NCBI RefSeq assembly: GCF_028898945.1
Contig: NZ_CP118607.1
Coordinates: 3,334,001-3,398,000 of the forward strand
Reading direction: 5' to 3'
DNA length: 64,000 nt
Source: Pseudomonas sp. PSKL.D1
GTDB taxonomy: Bacteria; Pseudomonadota; Gammaproteobacteria; Pseudomonadales; Pseudomonadaceae
Shown: one piece after another, positions 6,157-23,628 of the stretch
Layout: the number at the start of each line of letters is the position of its first letter
Position numbering within the stretch: the stretch's first letter is position 1
The notes under the pieces: generated by a model
Told to the model about the DNA's origin: nothing
Databases searched by the model: none
Seen by the model: the letters and a program-made list of their open reading frames with translations, nothing else
Position numbers and translations under genes: made by a program

Positions 6157-7776
6157 CTACAAGCCGATCTTCTTCGGTGGGTACTTCTTGAAGGTGGCCA
6201 GATGGGCCTGAGCCTCCGACAGCAAGGACGCCAGCCACGGATTGAGCCGATGCCCCATCGGCATCGACTCCTTCGGGTCGACGTAAAGGTTGAACAACCA
6301 GGGCGAAAGTCCGATCTGCTCGGTGGTGCTATAGTCGATGGTCATGTGCTCCGCCTGCTCCATCGTCATCTTCAGGTGGATCTTGTATTCGCGCATCCGT
6401 ACTGCCGCCAGGTTTGCACCTGTCCAGATGTATTCGGCCTCACGCTTGCTCTGACCGTCATCGGCGACCAGGAAGGACGCCTGATCGATGCCGTCGTAAT
6501 AGCGGTCCTTGAGCAGTTTGTCACCGGCACCGGCGAAGCGCAGACTGGTGTTGAATAGGTCCATCAGGTCGAACAGCTCGGCACTTTCCCGGGGCTCGAT
6601 CATGTTCTTCCAATAGGCGATCCCCGGCACCCGGACCCCACCCTCCCAGGCCGAGCCCTTGGCGCCCCGGAACGGTGTAAAGCCGGAGTCGGGCCAGCTG
6701 TCCATCTGCGGGCCGTTGTCGGAGGTGAGGAAGATGAAGGTGTTCTCCAGCACTCCCGCCTTGTCCAACGCCTCGACGATGCGGCCGACGAGCGCGTCGA
6801 CTTCGACGACATTGTCCTTGAACGGATACTTGCTGGCGCTGCTGCCAACAAACGCCTTGCTCGGGTGGTTGTCGGCGTGTACGCGCATGAAGTTATGGGC
6901 GATGAAGAACGGTTTATCGCCCTTGGCCAAGGCATTGATACGTTCGATGGTGAAAGCAGCCAGGGTCTGATCCGCTTCGGCAAACTGTTCGATGCTAGTG
7001 GTTTTCTCCACTACCTTTTCACCTTGGCCTTTGGCTCCGTAGTACATATCGATCTTGCCCCCTACCTTCTTGAAGCGCTCTAGCTTTTCAGTGTCGTACA
7101 CCAGATCCGGATAGCGCCTGCCGTCAAACTGCTGGGTCAGCTCCTTTTGCGAGGCGTAATAGCCCTTGAATTCGTCAAAACCCACCTCCCATGGACGCAT
7201 GCCCTCCAGTTCACCGGTGTGCCATTTACCCGTCAGAATTGTGTGATAGCCAGCGCCGGACAATAGCTCGGCAATGCTGTGTTCATCCTCCCAAGGGTTC
7301 TTCATCACCTTGTCGCCAGCCAGGATCGGTCGGATCAGGCCGGTTCGGGCCGGTAGACGGCCAGTCATCATCGCCGATCGTGTCGGCGTACACGTGGGCT
7401 GGGAGTAGGTCGAGGTGATGGCTAGCCCACTAACGGCTAGGGTATCGATGTGAGGGGTGGCCGCGCCGATATGTGCGCCGCCACCCCAAGGGCCGCCAAC
7501 ATCGCCGAAGCCCAAATCATCCACCACCAGCCAGACGATGTTCGGCCGCTTGCCGGTTTTCTTCAGTAACGCGTCTAGTTTCGCATCAGCGGCCTTGTCC
7601 TGGGCTTCACGAGGAATGGCGGGCTGTTGATTATCCTGCTGGACCACCGCCCGGCTCAGCTCCGACGCGGGGTAGGCCCCGTTTGCGGAGACCAGTGAGT
7701 CCTCGGCATGTGTGGCGAAGGCCGTTATATAGCCAAGCGAGGCAAGCAGCACTGCAACTCCAGAGCGTTTGAGCAT
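6157..7776 (-). CDS. Exported arylsulfatase (type I, cysteine type)
   Basis: A 539-residue sulfatase of the alkaline phosphatase superfamily that hydrolyses sulfate esters. The N-terminus (residues 1-24, ending THA) is a signal peptide. Metal-binding residues D86 and D87 sit in VVDDLGFGD. The formylglycine site is C129 in CTPTR followed by MTGR, the classic CxPxR motif, so maturation needs a formylglycine-generating enzyme or another maturase, which is not in this window. Further family blocks are present (LTGKWH, FLTSDNGP). The ribosome binding site is AAAGGAG. It leads the minus-strand pair with the DUF3313 lipoprotein and converges on the two DUF1254 genes. The natural substrate cannot be read from sequence. 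Confidence 0.9.
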   Translation of the reverse strand: MLKRSGVAVLLASLGYITAFATHAEDSLVSANGAYPASELSRAVVQQDNQQPAIPREAQDKAADAKLDALLKKTGKRPNIVWLVVDDLGFGDVGGPWGGGAHIGAATPHIDTLAVSGLAITSTYSQPTCTPTRSAMMTGRLPARTGLIRPILAGDKVMKNPWEDEHSIAELLSGAGYHTILTGKWHTGELEGMRPWEVGFDEFKGYYASQKELTQQFDGRRYPDLVYDTEKLERFKKVGGKIDMYYGAKGQGEKVVEKTTSIEQFAEADQTLAAFTIERINALAKGDKPFFIAHNFMRVHADNHPSKAFVGSSASKYPFKDNVVEVDALVGRIVEALDKAGVLENTFIFLTSDNGPQMDSWPDSGFTPFRGAKGSAWEGGVRVPGIAYWKNMIEPRESAELFDLMDLFNTSLRFAGAGDKLLKDRYYDGIDQASFLVADDGQSKREAEYIWTGANLAAVRMREYKIHLKMTMEQAEHMTIDYSTTEQIGLSPWLFNLYVDPKESMPMGHRLNPWLASLLSEAQAHLATFKKYPPKKIGL

Positions 7777-17297: not shown

Positions 17298-18272
17298 TCA
17301 GTTGTCGGTGCTGCCCTGGTAGCCTGCGCCATGCGACAGTGCTGCCAGGGCAGGCCCCTGCACAGTGCTGACACCCTCCAACTGTGCCTGGGAAATGTCT
17401 TTTGCCGTGAGCAAAAAGTCGCTCATGTAAGGCACTTCAAGCATGTCGCTGCGAACGGCTGCGAACAGCGTTGCCTGCAACCCTTGCTCGCCCAGCCGTT
17501 TGGCAATCACGTAACCGCGCGAGGTGTACTCGTGCACGGCCCAGTTCGGCAGGCAGCATACCCCTCGGCCACTGGCTACCAGTTGCATCATCATGACGGT
17601 CATCTCGGCGGTGCGAACCTGCGCCGGTTCGATGTCGGCAGGGTCCAGGAAGCGGGTGAAAATGTCCAGGCGGTTGCGCTCGATCGGGTACGTGATCAGG
17701 GTTTGGCTGGCAATGTCGGCCGGGGTCAGATACGGCCTGTCGCGCAGCACATGATGCTTGTCGATGGCCAGTAGTGCCTCGTAGCCGAACAGTGGCACGT
17801 AAGTGATCCCGGGCAGCTCGGCCGGGTCGGAGGTTACCACCAGGTCGAGATCCCCGCGCTCCAGCGCCGGCAGCGGCGCGAATGAGAGCCCCGATGCCAG
17901 GTCCAGTTCCACCTCCGGCCAGGCTTCGCGAAACTCGTCCAGCGAAGGCATCAGCCACTGGTAACAGCTGTGGCACTCAATGGCGATATTCAGCCGGTCA
18001 GCAGCTCCACCCGCCAGCCGGGTCAGGTTGCGCTCGGTCGTGCGAATCAGCGGCAGCACCTGGTCGGCCAGTTGCAGCAGCTTGAGCCCCGCAGAGGTGA
18101 AGCGCACGGGCTTGGATTTGCGCACGAATACCGTCAAGCCAAGGCGGCTTTCAAGTTCCTTGAACTGGTGCGACAAGGCCGACTGTGTCAGGTTCAGGCG
18201 CTCGGCGGCATCGGGCAGACTGTCCGTTTCGCGCAAGGCATGAAGCGTGCGCAAGTGTCTCAAGTCGATCAT
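17298..18272 (-). CDS. metR: LysR-type methionine regulator MetR
   Basis: A 324-residue LysR regulator that matches MetR: it begins MIDLRHLRTLHAL, the helix-turn-helix is LPDAAERLNLTQSALSHQFKEL, and the effector part contains IECHSCYQWLMP as in MetR. MetR activates methionine synthesis genes with homocysteine as co-effector. The ATG at 18272 matches the family start. It is the last of four tightly packed minus-strand genes (17 bases behind the flavin reductase), so it would be expressed with the enzyme it probably controls. Canonical metR is instead divergent from metE. Confidence 0.85.
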   Translation of the reverse strand: MIDLRHLRTLHALRETDSLPDAAERLNLTQSALSHQFKELESRLGLTVFVRKSKPVRFTSAGLKLLQLADQVLPLIRTTERNLTRLAGGAADRLNIAIECHSCYQWLMPSLDEFREAWPEVELDLASGLSFAPLPALERGDLDLVVTSDPAELPGITYVPLFGYEALLAIDKHHVLRDRPYLTPADIASQTLITYPIERNRLDIFTRFLDPADIEPAQVRTAEMTVMMMQLVASGRGVCCLPNWAVHEYTSRGYVIAKRLGEQGLQATLFAAVRSDMLEVPYMSDFLLTAKDISQAQLEGVSTVQGPALAALSHGAGYQGSTDN

Positions 18273-18289
18273 GAGCAGAAGGCAAACGC

Positions 18290-18799
18290 TCAGCCCGCGA
18301 CAAGCGCGCTGAGGTTGCAATATTGTCCTTTGAAGTACAACAGTGGTTGCGAAGCCGTCGGTTCTTGCAGGCTCAACGCTTTCACTTCACCAATCACGAT
18401 CACGTGATCACCGGCCTCATGTTCAGCGTGAATTTCGCAATCAAGCCAATGCAGGCTGCCGGCAATCACCGGGTTGCCAAGTGGCGACAACTGCCATTGC
18501 ACGCCATGCCACTTGTCCGCACCCTTGCGGGCAAAACGGTTGGAAACCCCAACCTGTTCACCCGCCAGGATGTTGACCGCGAACCGGCCCGCCTGCCGCA
18601 TGCCTGGGTAACTGGCGGAGGTGGCCATTACACTGAATGACACCAGTGGCGGGCTCATCGACACGCTGTAGAACGACTGACAAGTGAAGCCGATCGGCAC
18701 GCCATCGATCAGTGACGTAATCACCGTGATGCCGGACGCGTAGTGCCCGAGCGCTTCACGAAAACTCAAAGGTTCGATGGCGTTACCAGAAGGAGGCAT
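18290..18799 (-). CDS. Flavin reductase family protein
   Basis: A 169-residue FMN-binding split-barrel protein of the flavin reductase family, which reduces free FMN or FAD with NAD(P)H to supply oxygenases. Typical blocks are GHYASGITVIT near the N-terminus, SFYSVSMSPPLVSFSV, and the HWLDCEIHAEHEAGDHVIVIGEV region with the conserved GDH. I chose the ATG at 18799; the frame is open to 18853 but would overlap mesD. The gap to mesD is 25 bases and to metR 17 bases. This position suggests it provides reduced flavin to the oxygen-requiring MesD/MesX system; this is inference. Confidence 0.85.
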   Translation of the reverse strand: MPPSGNAIEPLSFREALGHYASGITVITSLIDGVPIGFTCQSFYSVSMSPPLVSFSVMATSASYPGMRQAGRFAVNILAGEQVGVSNRFARKGADKWHGVQWQLSPLGNPVIAGSLHWLDCEIHAEHEAGDHVIVIGEVKALSLQEPTASQPLLYFKGQYCNLSALVAG

Positions 18800-18824
18800 G
18801 GGAAATCCTACGTTATCAGGGCCT

Positions 18825-19856
18825 TTAATTGGCCAACAGCTCTCTACGGACAATGTCTGCCCCTGCGCTCAATGCTTTCAACTTGCCGTTGGCGACATGC
18901 CGAGGTAAGGGGGCCATGCCGCAGTTGGTGCACGGGTAGAGTTTATCGGCATCAACAAATTGCAGTGCCTTGCGCAAGGTAGTGGCGACTTCCTCGGGCG
19001 TTTCAACGGCATGGTTCGCCACGTCAATGGCACCGACCATCACTTTTTTGCCACGCACAAGTTCCAACAACTCCATGGGCACGTGGGAGTTGTGGCACTC
19101 CAGCGAAATGATATCGATGCTGGATTGCTGCAGTTTGGGGAATGCCTGCTCGTACTGGCGCCACTCTGACCCCAACGACTTTTTCCAGTCAGTGTTGGCT
19201 TTGATGCCATAGCCATAGCAAATATGCACGGCGGTCTCACACTTCAGGCCTTCGATGGCCCTTTCCAGGGTTGCGACGCCCCAGTCATTCACCTCGTCGA
19301 AAAACACATTGAAGGCGGGTTCATCAAACTGGATGATGTCCACACCCGCGGCCTCCAGTTCCCTGGCTTCCTCGTTGAGAATTCTGGCAAATTCCCAAGC
19401 CAGTTTTTCACGGCTTTTATAGTGATTGTCATGCAACGTGTCGATCATGGTCATCGGGCCGGGTAACGCCCATTTGATCGGTTGCCCGGTTTGCTGACGC
19501 AAGAATTTTGCATCGTCTACAAATACCGGCTTCTGACGTGCAACAGCACCCACTACTGTCGGTACGCTTGCATCGTAGCGATTACGGATCCTGACTGTTT
19601 CACGCTGCTCGAAATCAACACCACTGAGGTGCTCGATGAACGTGGTTACAAAGTGTTGGCGTGTTTGCTCGCCATCGCTGACGATATCAATGCCGGCCTG
19701 CTGCTGCTCCTGCAATGCCAGACGCAGTGCATCCTGCTTGCCTTCGAGCAATGCCTGATCGTGCAACTTCCAGGGTGACCAGAGTGTTTCAGGCTGCGCC
19801 AGCCAGGACGGCTTCGGCAAACTACCAGCGGTTGAGGTAGGCAACAATTTTTTCAC
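18825..19856 (-). CDS. mesD: Core cobalamin-independent methionine synthase, MesD type
   Basis: A 343-residue protein covering only the C-terminal catalytic barrel of MetE, about half the size of full MetE. The zinc ligands are all visible: H211 and C213 (VHICYG), E253 (SLECHNS) and C312 (CTNCG). FDEPAF is the other MetE signature. It lacks the N-terminal folate-binding half. From the literature as I recall it, such short MetE paired with a DUF1852 protein are the MesD/MesX methionine synthases, which need oxygen and do not use methyl-tetrahydrofolate polyglutamate. I chose the GTG at 19856, 19 bases after mesX; upstream codons would overlap mesX. Confidence 0.85.
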   Translation of the reverse strand: MKKLLPTSTAGSLPKPSWLAQPETLWSPWKLHDQALLEGKQDALRLALQEQQQAGIDIVSDGEQTRQHFVTTFIEHLSGVDFEQRETVRIRNRYDASVPTVVGAVARQKPVFVDDAKFLRQQTGQPIKWALPGPMTMIDTLHDNHYKSREKLAWEFARILNEEARELEAAGVDIIQFDEPAFNVFFDEVNDWGVATLERAIEGLKCETAVHICYGYGIKANTDWKKSLGSEWRQYEQAFPKLQQSSIDIISLECHNSHVPMELLELVRGKKVMVGAIDVANHAVETPEEVATTLRKALQFVDADKLYPCTNCGMAPLPRHVANGKLKALSAGADIVRRELLAN

Positions 19857-19875
19857 GGGATAAAAACCTATCGAT

Positions 19876-20862
19876 TCAGGAAACGACGTTGCCAGCCCAC
19901 TGCTCAAGCAGCGCGCGATATGGCGTGATGAAGTGCTGTTGGGCAAACTGCCCTTGCTCGATCGCCAGGCGGCTGCGCTCTTCGCGGTCATACACAATGC
20001 GCGTGAGCGAATAATCCTGATGTTTCAAGCTGGGCTGATAGCAGGCACCTGCAGCCGAATTGGCGTTGTATATTTCGGGGCGGTAAATTTTCTGGAAAGT
20101 ATCCATCGTACTGATGGTGCTGATCAGTTCCAGGGGCGTGTAGTCACCGAGCAAATCGCCGGAGAAATAGAACGCCAATGGCGCGACGCTGTGAGGCGGC
20201 ATGAAGTAACGCACCTTCAAGCCCATTTTCGCGAAGTACTCATCGGTCAGGGAATACGACTCTTGCCTGTATTCATGACCCAGCACGGGGTGATGATTTT
20301 CAGTGCGACGGTACGTTTTGCTGCTTGAAACACTCAGGCAAATCACCGGCGGTTTGTTGAACGCTGCCTTGTAAGTACTTGAGTTCACGAAATGCTTGAA
20401 GAGCTTTCCATGCAGCGTGCCAAAGTGCTCAGGCGTGCTGAACGCTGGCCGGTTTTCATTGTGCGCTGGCAACAATACGCTGAAGTCATAATCACGCACA
20501 TAGGAAGAAAAGTTGTTCCCAACCATACCGGCAATACGTTCGCCGGTATGCTGGTCGAGGACGTGAGTACTCAACAATTCAATCAAGGGCAGCGTGTGCT
20601 CGTTGCTTTCGTCAGCAACATGCATTCTGACAGAAACAATATCAAGCCCGACGCGATAACGGTCGCCGGCTGGATTATCCCAGCTTGCCAAGGCATTGAA
20701 GCGGTTATCAATCATGCGCAAGGTATTGCGCAAATTTTCCTGACGGCTCGCACCCCGCGCCAAATTTGCGAAATTTGTAGTGGTGCGCGTGTTTTCGCAG
20801 GGCTGATAATGTTCATCAAAGCCAATGCTGCTGATGAAAAAACTAAAATCTTCGTTTGCCAT
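19876..20862 (-). CDS. mesX: DUF1852 protein, MesX-type partner of MesD
   Basis: A 328-residue DUF1852 protein. I recognise it by its position before a core-MetE gene and by sequence memory of the family (start MANEDFSFFISSIGFDE). The MesX protein is reported to be required for MesD activity; its chemistry is not settled. No signal peptide or membrane helix is seen. A GTG four codons upstream (20874) is an alternative start. It is the first gene of the mesX-mesD-flavin reductase-metR run. A perfect TGAA-N5-TTCA palindrome lies 75 bases upstream. Confidence 0.82.
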   Translation of the reverse strand: MANEDFSFFISSIGFDEHYQPCENTRTTTNFANLARGASRQENLRNTLRMIDNRFNALASWDNPAGDRYRVGLDIVSVRMHVADESNEHTLPLIELLSTHVLDQHTGERIAGMVGNNFSSYVRDYDFSVLLPAHNENRPAFSTPEHFGTLHGKLFKHFVNSSTYKAAFNKPPVICLSVSSSKTYRRTENHHPVLGHEYRQESYSLTDEYFAKMGLKVRYFMPPHSVAPLAFYFSGDLLGDYTPLELISTISTMDTFQKIYRPEIYNANSAAGACYQPSLKHQDYSLTRIVYDREERSRLAIEQGQFAQQHFITPYRALLEQWAGNVVS

Positions 20863-20937: not shown

Positions 20938-20950
20938 TGAATTGATTTCA
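20938..20950. promoter_or_regulatory. Putative MetR operator
   Basis: The 13-base site TGAATTGATTTCA matches the MetR consensus TGAA-N5-TTCA exactly in both half-sites, with G rather than A/T at the centre. It lies 76 to 88 bases before the ATG of mesX, an activator-like position. MetR is encoded at the end of the same operon. Confidence 0.6.
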
Positions 20951-21025: not shown

Positions 21026-23164
21026 TCAGAAGCGGTAGTCAGCCGTAACAAAGAATGACCGCGGCTCGCCCAAGTACCACTGCAACCCATTGTTGCTGGT
21101 GGTGGTAGCGTATTGGCGATCAAACAGGTTGTTCAGTTGCAGGCCCAACGTCAGGTCCGGTTGCACACGCCAGTCAATATTGGCATCCACCACCGTGTAA
21201 CTCGGCACCTCGACGGTATTGGCGTTATCGGCATAACGGCTGTCGACATAGCGGGCGCCAGCACCGGCACTGAAGCGCTGGCCAAAGTCCTTGCTCAACC
21301 ACAGGTTGGCCGACCGACGCGGCACGTCGGTTGGCCGGTTACCGGCATAATCGTCGCCACCGCTGGCAAACTCGTCGTAACGCGCCCTCACCCAGGCGGC
21401 ATTGGCCGACAGCTGCACGTCGTACGGCAGGTTCAGCTCCAGGGTTGCCTCGATGCCGTCCGAAGACTGCTGGCCAACCTGCTGCTGCAACGTCGGGTTG
21501 AGCGGGTCGGTGCTGAGCAGCTTTTTCTTGACGATGTGATATGCCGCCAGGGTCCACTCCCCTCGCCCATCCGGTAGCACCTGCTTGATACCCACCTCGG
21601 TTTGTTTGGCGGTACTGAGGTCCCATTGCTGCTGGGCGGCGTTGAGGGTCAACAGGTTGCTGATCCCTTCGGTGCTGGTGGCGTACTGGCCGTACACCGA
21701 CAAGTCTGGCGTCAAGGCGAACACCAGGCCGGCGCGCCAGTTATCGCCCGAAAGGCTGCGGTCGGTACGGGTATCGGCCAGCAGATCATCGCGGTTCAAG
21801 TGCACCTGGTCACGGCGTACCCCCGTGATCAACGACAAACGCTCGGTGAGTTGGGTGCGGTTTTCGGCAAACAGCGAGAATTGCCGGGCCTGGTTGGCCT
21901 CGCGTGAGCGGTATGGGTCGTTGCTGATGTACTCGCCACCGCCCGAGCCCGCCAATGGCACCGTATCGGTCAGGGTATTGCCGAAGTCGTGCTTGCGTAC
22001 GAAGCGGATCGAGTTGTAGTCGGCGCCAACCACCGTCTGGCTGGCCAGGCCGAACAGCGAATGCTGCAGGGTGAAGGACTGGCGGTCGCCAATCTGGTCC
22101 TGGGTCTGCTTGATGCTGATGAAGTTGCTGCGCTGCACCTGGTCGCCCGGCAGCCAGGTGTAGGTTTCGGCATTGCGCCAACGGCGCTGGGCCTTGAGGA
22201 AGTACAGCTGGTTGCTGGCGGTGAGGGTGTCGTTGATCACCCAGTCTGTGACCAGGCGCGTGGACTGGTCGTTGTAATGCACCTCGGCGTTATCGACGTT
22301 GTAGTTGTGGTCACGCAGCGACTCACGAAAATGCCCGTTCACCAGCGGCGTGCCGAAGTACTGCTGCGGGTCCTGGTCCCCGTAGTCGTGGCTGAGGGTG
22401 ACACTCAGGTCGTCGTTCGGCTGCCAGCGCAGGGAGCCGCTGATGGCGAGGCTTTGCGAGTCGCCACGGTCGACCCAGCCGTGGCTGGCCAGCTTGTTCA
22501 GGTTCAGGCGGTAGCTCAAGGTGTCGCTGAGCGAGCCACCGCTGTCCAGTGCCATCTGCCGGCGGTCATCGGAACCATACCCCAGGCGCACGTGGTTGCG
22601 GATTTCCCCCTCGAACGGTTTTTTCGGGACCACATTGATAACCGCCCCGGTTGCGCCCTCCCCGTACAGCACAGATGCCGGGCCACGCAGCACATCGATG
22701 CGCTCGACCGACCAAGTGTCCACCGGAAAGGTAACCGTACCAGCGCCCACGTACAGCCGCGTGCCGTCGTACAACTGCATGGTCGAACCGTGGCCGGTAA
22801 AGCCGCGCGCCGAAAGCGCCGTGCCACCGTTGCCCGGGTCGCCGATGAAGGTGATGCCCGGGGAGCGGGTAACCGCTTGCTGCACGGTGGCATTGTTGCG
22901 TGTGTCGATTTGCTCGGCGCTGATGCTGGTAACGCTTGCCGGGGTTTCCAGCGGCGTCAGGTTCAGCCGCGAACCGCTGGCATTGGGGGTATGCAGGTCG
23001 GGCGGCATATCTTGCCCGGCGATACCGGTGATGTCTGTTGCGGGCAGCGCGAGGGCCTTGTCGGCCTCGGCGGCCAACGCCGGCAGGGTGAAGAACACGC
23101 AGGGCACCAGGCTTGCACGCAGCAATGGGCCAGGCAGTGAACTGAACAGCGAATTACGGGACAT
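21026..23164 (-). CDS. TonB-dependent outer-membrane receptor under cobalamin riboswitch
   Basis: A 712-residue TonB-dependent receptor with signal peptide (about residues 1-31, ending ALAAEA), plug domain (about 70-180; VERIDVLRGPASVLYGEGATGAVINV) and a 22-strand barrel ending in ADYRF. In sequence it looks like the siderophore receptor branch (FhuA/FoxA-like) rather than BtuB. A cobalamin riboswitch lies in its leader, so it is probably repressed by cobalamin. Candidate ligands are cobalamin, a corrinoid precursor or a metal chelate. The ATG at 23164 starts the signal peptide; the frame is open further upstream into the riboswitch. Confidence 0.85.
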   Translation of the reverse strand: MSRNSLFSSLPGPLLRASLVPCVFFTLPALAAEADKALALPATDITGIAGQDMPPDLHTPNASGSRLNLTPLETPASVTSISAEQIDTRNNATVQQAVTRSPGITFIGDPGNGGTALSARGFTGHGSTMQLYDGTRLYVGAGTVTFPVDTWSVERIDVLRGPASVLYGEGATGAVINVVPKKPFEGEIRNHVRLGYGSDDRRQMALDSGGSLSDTLSYRLNLNKLASHGWVDRGDSQSLAISGSLRWQPNDDLSVTLSHDYGDQDPQQYFGTPLVNGHFRESLRDHNYNVDNAEVHYNDQSTRLVTDWVINDTLTASNQLYFLKAQRRWRNAETYTWLPGDQVQRSNFISIKQTQDQIGDRQSFTLQHSLFGLASQTVVGADYNSIRFVRKHDFGNTLTDTVPLAGSGGGEYISNDPYRSREANQARQFSLFAENRTQLTERLSLITGVRRDQVHLNRDDLLADTRTDRSLSGDNWRAGLVFALTPDLSVYGQYATSTEGISNLLTLNAAQQQWDLSTAKQTEVGIKQVLPDGRGEWTLAAYHIVKKKLLSTDPLNPTLQQQVGQQSSDGIEATLELNLPYDVQLSANAAWVRARYDEFASGGDDYAGNRPTDVPRRSANLWLSKDFGQRFSAGAGARYVDSRYADNANTVEVPSYTVVDANIDWRVQPDLTLGLQLNNLFDRQYATTTSNNGLQWYLGEPRSFFVTADYRF

Positions 23165-23281
23165 GTCGTTCCACTTGAAGCAGGAATGGAAGAAGCCCGG
23201 AGGGAAAAACGCACAGGGAAACGCAGGCGCACGCGCCCACGCAAACCGGCCTGCGCCCGCCCACCGCGGGTTGCCTATCGA

Positions 23282-23466
23282 TGCTTCAGGCCGGTCTCCG
23301 GGCTCACGAGGGTCATGAAGCATTCACCTTCCCATGCCAGAGCACAGTGGCCTTTCGAATGCTTCGCTCGCATACCGTTGCGGGGGCAGCGCCGGACTGA
23401 TCATCACGCGATGACGAACCGGCTTCCCGTTTCACCCCAAGCTCGGCGGCAGGGGGCACCTGAAAC
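23282..23466 (-). promoter_or_regulatory. Cobalamin (adenosylcobalamin-type) riboswitch
   Basis: Read on the minus strand, the leader contains in order GGTGCCCCCTGCC, GGGGTGAAACGGGAAGCCGG, GGCGCTGCCCCGCAACGGTA, CCACTGTGC, CATGGGAAGG and finally AGCCCGGAGACCGGCCT. These are the conserved blocks of the cobalamin riboswitch, including an essentially perfect B12 box (about 23288-23305). The element ends about 118 bases before the receptor ATG, leaving room for an expression platform. A TTGACC about 25 bases upstream of the aptamer could be part of the promoter. Confidence 0.93.
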
Positions 23467-23628
23467 AGGCGCGCAGATGACCATCAAATTGCCATAAGGT
23501 CAACCGGCAATCGTTAAAGCAGTAGTTTTTCTATCGCCAAGTGACAAGTAGTGTGGCTCTCTGCCTTGGCCGGCAGGTGCTAGCCTGACGACTCACACTT
23601 CATCATTAAATGTGTCTCAGGAGGCCGC

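Follow-up and report, generated by a model that had tools for sequence, protein, structure and literature searches.

Introduction

Among the few known routes to methionine that need neither methyl-folate nor a corrinoid is the MesD/MesX system, named by Price, Deutschbauer and Arkin (2021) and described as a folate-independent methionine synthase, in which mesD and mesX together rescue metE and metF mutants of E. coli, and do so only with oxygen (PMC7857596). Activity without 5-methyltetrahydrofolate (5-methyl-THF) and cobalamin, and requiring O2, was published for the pair of S. koreensis; the frequent vicinity of mesX/mesD to a flavin reductase is likewise in print already, and the same authors sketched, by way of example, a reaction in which an oxygenase employs reduced flavin, and they argued that methylene-THF could not serve an oxidase (PMC7857596). 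The present analysis deals with such a pair, together with the flavin reductase gene and the MetR-like gene that follow it, in a stretch of 64,000 nucleotides from Pseudomonas sp. PSKL.D1 (contig NZ_CP118607.1, positions 3,334,001 to 3,398,000 of the forward strand), hereafter called the window.

Regarding regulation, PF08908-metE2, PF08908 being the family of MesX (DUF1852), was predicted as a MetR target (Leyn, 2014; PMC4239095), and cobalamin riboswitches control B12-independent metE, as in M. tuberculosis (PMC11260477). In two strains of A. baumannii, B12 lowers the DUF1852 transcript by log2 -8.3 and -8.1, i.e. about 270- to 320-fold, and that of a flavin reductase by log2 -2.5 (PMC12892962). 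Besides, MesD homologues have been linked to the ability of two root isolates to tolerate nitrous oxide (PMC13059711), and a 2025 paper treats a 'Mes-like' protein of Phaeobacter, MesX going unmentioned in the accessible part of that article (PMC12366255).

On the methyl donor and the oxygen dependence, to which the first-pass annotation had drawn attention, a literature search, outside which most subscription papers lay, returned no post-2021 work, nor any on the chemistry of MesX in general; it also returned no paper that names a cobalamin riboswitch as well as DUF1852, and the term 'riboswitch' is absent from the main text of PMC7857596. The initial observation is sound and concerns a system already described; the novelty lies in the counts, in the swap of reductases, in the placements of B12 riboswitches and in the structural isolation of MesX.

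The mesX-mesD pair and its downstream neighbours

Read on the minus strand from 20862 to 17298, the genes mesX, mesD, flavin reductase and MetR-like regulator follow one another with gaps of 19 (mesX/mesD), 25 (mesD/reductase) and 17 bases (reductase/MetR-like gene), exactly as first annotated (Table 1). MesX matches the PF08908 profile with 595 bits (cut-off 25), and MesD matches PF01717 with 123 bits, the solved MesD structure 3rpd with 663 bits and the NCBIfam equivalog NF006589 with 697.7 bits (cut-off 392); this last model being named only 'methionine synthase', the name MesD was taken from the similarity to 3rpd and from the neighbouring mesX. The view of MesD as a core MetE with a full set of zinc ligands and devoid of the folate half was also borne out, H211, C213, E253 and C312 being all identical in 3rpd and the folate-half profile PF08267 reaching 23.5 bits, below its cut-off of 27, so that no N-terminal folate domain was found with it. 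E253 and C312 align with the 'IE' and 'DCG' segments of the MetE structures, to which the H-x-C pair has no clean alignment with the alignment program used. Taken with the genetic evidence available for other pairs (PMC7857596), membership in these families supports the identification of the window pair as a MesX/MesD methionine synthase system, which would act without 5-methyl-THF and cobalamin and would need O2, as initially proposed. Downstream, the reductase matches PF01613 (141 bits, cut-off 27) and structure 3nfw (146 bits), its top NCBIfam match, HsaB NF045630, standing at 184.9 bits under a cut-off of 230, hence the label 'HsaB-like' only; the LysR gene is likewise labelled MetR-like, as its top match, MetR NF011950, scores 293 bits under a cut-off of 382.

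Conservation was counted in three samples, namely the best 80 of 592 stretches, i.e. the nearest relatives; 398 evenly drawn genomes of Pseudomonadota, of which 44 carry MesX, including the own genome, leaving 43 others for counting; and 40 genomes of the own genus, 10 of them with MesX, the window's included. The gene next after mesX is mesD in all 80 near relatives and in all 43 evenly drawn genomes, within 400 bases in 42 of the latter and at 701 in the last. By comparison, a PF01613-type reductase directly follows mesD in 49/80 near relatives, in 2/43 evenly drawn genomes and in 5/10 genomes of the genus draw (the window's included), metR then following in 2 of these five. A MetR-like gene of at least 200 bits lies within 2 kb in 29/80 near loci, and one of at least 100 bits within about 5 kb in 7/43 evenly drawn genomes, and the exact four-gene order of the window recurs in three of the 80 (L036, L041 and L112). 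The mesX-mesD pair is thus fixed and the reductase and metR are lineage habits, so that the 'fixed company' of reductase and MetR advanced in the first-pass annotation did not survive the genome count that it had called for: the reductase is common beside mesXD in some lineages and is no fixed partner. Concerning the reductase slot, 2 of the 31 near loci lacking the gene are truncated at the end of a contig, and the reductase that L037 carries 6.9 kb away was left uncounted; the search profile having been built from the neighbours in these same 80 loci, a very different reductase could be missed.

Whether the reductase merely travels with the cassette in some lineages, as a bystander, has to be asked in view of this patchy distribution and of the first downstream frames, which are unrelated to one another wherever the reductase is missing. 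A hitchhiker would hardly be swapped in place, however, and the 49 slot reductases fall, by score to the window's reductase, into 36 of class A and 13 of class B. Seven of the 49 were scanned against NCBIfam, none exceeding an equivalog cut-off: class A proteins (L043, L109, L112 and the window's) have HsaB as best match (172-185 bits) and class B proteins (L045, L076, L100 and L104) have RutF (186-216 bits). RutF is seen in E. coli, a species with flavin reductases of its own. On a quick tree of 81 MesX sequences, in which many forks are weak (33 of the 78 inner branches left open), the two classes require at least three changes, with the class B Acinetobacter loci L066 and L069 placed among class A pseudomonads. 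As the drop of the DUF1852 transcript under B12 in A. baumannii is moreover shared by a flavin reductase (PMC12892962), the bystander explanation appears quite improbable. Replacement in place by another subfamily makes reduced flavin look wanted, and the absence of the gene elsewhere means that the supplier may be another gene or that reduced flavin is not needed. As a clue to mechanism, the reductase is accordingly weaker than claimed, being patchy, but it is not void, two subfamilies sharing the one slot.

Table 1. Positions of the features of the mesX-mesD locus in the window
Feature	Position	Strand	Description
mesX	19876..20862	-	328 amino acids, ATG start; DUF1852/PF08908; putative oxygenase/methyl-donor maker
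mesD	18825..19856	-	343 amino acids, GTG start; core methionine synthase
Flavin reductase	18290..18799	-	169 amino acids; HsaB-like subfamily
MetR-like LysR regulator	17298..18272	-	324 amino acids
MetR-type box TGAA-N5-TTCA	20938..20950	-	Predicted; upstream of mesX
TonB-dependent receptor gene	21026..23164	-	Upstream of mesX; start at 23164 chosen by the authors; possible co-transcription
Cobalamin riboswitch aptamer	23272..23478	-	RF00174; 107 bases ahead of the chosen receptor start

The MesX protein and reduced flavin

With the neighbouring reductase being optional, the decisive question becomes whether MesX itself needs reduced flavin. A sequence search of the PDB with MesX found no relative. 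The AlphaFold2 model built from 97 sequences reaches a predicted local distance difference test score (pLDDT) of 87.6 and a predicted template modelling score of 0.88, and residues 1-240 modelled alone give a pLDDT of 87.0 with the same order of elements. Two-component flavin oxygenases and GNAT acyltransferases were weighed as folds, and no PDB match reached significance. Judged by this confident predicted model, MesX is an isolated family that lacks a significant match to solved folds, which does not imply that its fold is new; the very same combination makes it a good structural target.

Reduced flavin as the cofactor or co-substrate of MesX is the leading mechanism and, in our estimate, has an even chance of being right. 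Less likely, yet close behind, is the alternative that MesX works on O2 with a metal (e.g. non-haem iron) or with no cofactor at all; the reductase would then be a lineage-specific helper that, for instance, recycles flavin, re-reduces a metal or removes peroxide rather than supplying a cofactor to MesX. Residues invariant in the 97 aligned sequences include H151, H191, C175, E95, D124, D126 and E197, the two histidines, the cysteine and several acidic residues being enough for a metal site, which is thus no less possible than one for flavin. The near absence of the reductase from the evenly drawn MesX genomes, the sufficiency of mesXD in E. coli (PMC7857596) and the lack of a flavoenzyme fold match speak for this alternative too, yet it leaves aside that both reductase subfamilies sharing the slot are of the kind feeding two-component monooxygenases.

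Probable replacement of MetE and origin of the cassette

The own genome contains MetH (1758 bits), MetF (303 bits) and CobN (1716 bits), and a full MetE sought there was not found. Across the genus draw, 29 of the 40 genomes have a full MetE, and MesX is present in 8 of the 11 genomes without it vs. 2 of the 29 with it (Fisher P 8e-5, kinship not removed). MesX/MesD therefore seems to stand in for the missing MetE. At C1:896757-897365 of the own genome (L032), a 256-amino-acid frame resembles the N-terminal half of MetE only (153 bits) and adjoins a match like methylenetetrahydrofolate reductase on the other strand; MetE N-terminal matches in genomes devoid of full MetE are also seen in six members of the genus draw (G417, G420, G421, G422, G423 and G429).

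The G+C contents of mesX (51.5%), mesD (53.9%) and the reductase gene (57.5%) lie under the 62% of the window, and 7 of the 8 lowest-G+C 1-kb segments of the stretch start at 18751-20251, whereas the receptor gene (62.7%) and metR (62.4%) look native. This low G+C points to import, and the cassette was probably acquired horizontally.

Regarding mobile copies, MesX matches occur in 209 of 72,556 records of a plasmid collection, at least one of them chromosome-sized, with Pantoea (71), Acinetobacter (28), Agrobacterium (21) and Acetobacter (15) among the hosts besides others; 34 of these records are typed as conjugative and 40 as mobilizable. A locus titled Bacillus subtilis (L077) has a mesX near-identical on the tree to that of Pseudochrobactrum (L076), the record being probably contaminated. 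Another genome (G082, C1:2175963-2176446) shows a longer MesX match and, in addition, a pair of neighbouring MesX fragments, one of them containing a stop, which are perhaps a decayed second copy.

MetR box and cobalamin riboswitch

Of 110 loci (the 80 near relatives plus 30 short loci from the even draw), 40 have a MetR-type box ahead of mesX, compared with 65 of 3497 400-base windows cut from these loci; these 400-base windows take in the upstream regions themselves, consist mostly of coding sequence and are unmatched in composition. The box is also found in 5 of 9 genus loci in addition to the window, and together with a TAAAAT-like (-10-like) element about 30 bases further on it is conserved in ten aligned upstream regions, less so in L066. 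The operon's own MetR probably acts on the predicted box, judging from these patterns of sequence. A second MetR-like protein, 74% identical to that of the window, is encoded in the own genome at C1:1248924-1249838, without metE alongside.

Further upstream and on the strand of mesX, the window contains a full-length cobalamin riboswitch (23478-23272; RF00174, 104.5 bits against a gathering score of 31.5), on which the first-pass annotation was silent and which was recovered in a whole-genome scan. The TonB-dependent receptor gene that it precedes, taken as the longer frame 21026-23323, matches PF00593 and PF07715 as well as the siderophore-type model TIGR01783 (299.5 bits, above the cut-off of 223.5). 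An assignment as the cobalamin receptor BtuB was considered and rejected (TIGR01779, 109.7 bits vs. a cut-off of 599.7). Because the riboswitch precedes the gene, the cargo of this receptor is likely cobalamin.

Whether the riboswitch reaches mesX by read-through is a tentative matter, to which we give slightly less than an even chance. The receptor gene ends 163 bases before mesX, and no terminator-like hairpin was found between the two on their strand. Elsewhere, the aptamer precedes mesX on its own strand in six loci, namely L041, L080 and L094 from the 80 near relatives, L132 and L167 from the 43 evenly drawn genomes, and the plasmid copy L121; in six Rhizobiales loci (L045, L073, L078, L088, L091 and L102) the opposite strand carries it, in the space separating mesX from a divergent metR-like gene, whose transcript it leads. 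There, it stands directly ahead of metR (173 bases) in L088 and L102. A frame of about 280 amino acids, ending 2 bases before metR, is intercalated in L073, L078 and L091 (about 6560-7470, minus strand); this frame is shortened in L045 and does not exist in L088 and L102. All these placements, along with the lack of a terminator-like hit, argue against the simpler possibility that the riboswitch governs the TonB receptor, as a cobalamin importer, and nothing else, mesXD answering to MetR alone and the two being neighbours by chance. That possibility, which falls just short of evens as well, draws on the MetR box and the conserved -10-like element in the 163-base gap, on the minority status of the arrangement and on the near relative L036, where mesX lies behind other genes and has no riboswitch. 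Among the genus loci L172-L180, the aptamer occurs in L176 only, apparently the same contig as L041. An aptamer 5.5 kb off in L048 and the second aptamers of L088 and L102 were not counted.

Two loci bear additional observations. In L041 (7459-8000), a short frame from about 7779 between riboswitch and mesX reads like a signal peptide and is possibly a receptor-gene remnant; the surroundings of the MetR box there resemble those in the window. In the Acetobacter plasmid L119 (4461-4679), the aptamer is opposite to the mesX strand, with no annotated gene before an IS701 transposase.

Proposed explanation and points against it

As a whole, we somewhat favour the explanation of an acquired MesX/MesD pair that replaces MetE, with a flavin-fed MesX and control by both MetR and cobalamin. 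MesX would use O2 to oxidise a central metabolite and make a methyl donor, from which MesD, with zinc-activated homocysteine, would take the methyl group. Reduced flavin would be fed to MesX by the operon's reductase where present and by other cellular reductases elsewhere. A build-up of homocysteine would let MetR activate mesX through the box at 20938-20950, and cobalamin would both allow MetH to work and turn down the riboswitch-led receptor transcript running towards mesX. For other pairs, it is in print that MesX and MesD suffice in E. coli and that O2 is needed and MetF is not (PMC7857596).

Several observations weigh against this explanation. The reductase is missing from its slot in 31/80 near loci and 41/43 evenly drawn genomes, and the E. 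coli mutants were rescued by mesD and mesX alone, operon reductase not included (PMC7857596), so that in E. coli, which has flavin reductases of its own, the one from the operon is not strictly required. Neither the full nor the 1-240 model of MesX has a significant fold match in the PDB, and its sequence matches no known flavoenzyme. As to the regulator, the operon's MetR scores below the MetR cut-off, and the motif TGAA-N5-TTCA by itself is found twice in the window against 0.52 expected, 9 of 100 shuffles reaching two. As to cobalamin, an aptamer stands beside mesX in a minority of loci (9/80 near and 2/43 even loci; model R1, all loci), and the 163-base gap with its own MetR-type promoter means that the riboswitch may serve the receptor alone. 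Finally, no cobalamin riboswitch was found at the Acinetobacter loci L066 and L104, hence the published B12 effect in A. baumannii probably has another cause.

A bolder form of the flavin mechanism, which we hold to be very improbable, is that MesX, with its unsolved fold, turns a one-carbon unit of central metabolism, by means of reduced flavin and O2, into an activated methyl carrier and passes it to MesD. A formaldehyde-level unit would be caught on N5 of reduced flavin and reduced to N5-methyl; O2 would oxidise this flavin to the N5-methyl flavinium, and the zinc thiolate would take the methyl group, leaving oxidised flavin. By way of speculation, such an N5-methylflavin route would fit the reductase, the oxygen and the independence from MetF at once, and it departs from the oxidase argument of Price et al. 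(2021) because it comprises one reducing and one oxidising step.

Comparison with known systems

Beyond the window, the riboswitch placements show B12 supply to be a signal that recurs for MesXD, if only in a minority of loci, just as it serves for MetE, and this helps to infer B12 independence from genomes.

With the MesD/MesX system of Price et al. (2021), the locus shares the same two families in the same order, the zinc ligands, the missing folate half and the frequent nearness of a reductase, to which the window adds an HsaB-like reductase and a MetR-like gene after the pair and a riboswitch-led TonB receptor gene before it (PMC7857596). An upstream MetR-type box and a close MetR-like gene recall the MetR-activated metE divergon and the target predicted by Leyn (2014), except that metR in the window is not divergent but closes the operon, in the same direction as the other genes (PMC4239095). 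Just as in the riboswitch-controlled metE of M. tuberculosis, a B12 sensor is placed so as to silence a B12-independent methionine synthase; the enzyme here is MesXD and not MetE, and the aptamer leads a receptor gene in the window, and mesX or a metR-containing transcript elsewhere (PMC11260477). Lastly, a small PF01613 reductase beside an O2-using protein is the arrangement of the two-component flavin monooxygenases HsaA/HsaB, HpaB/HpaC and RutA/RutF, from which the locus differs in that MesX matches no solved oxygenase component significantly, be it in sequence or in fold.

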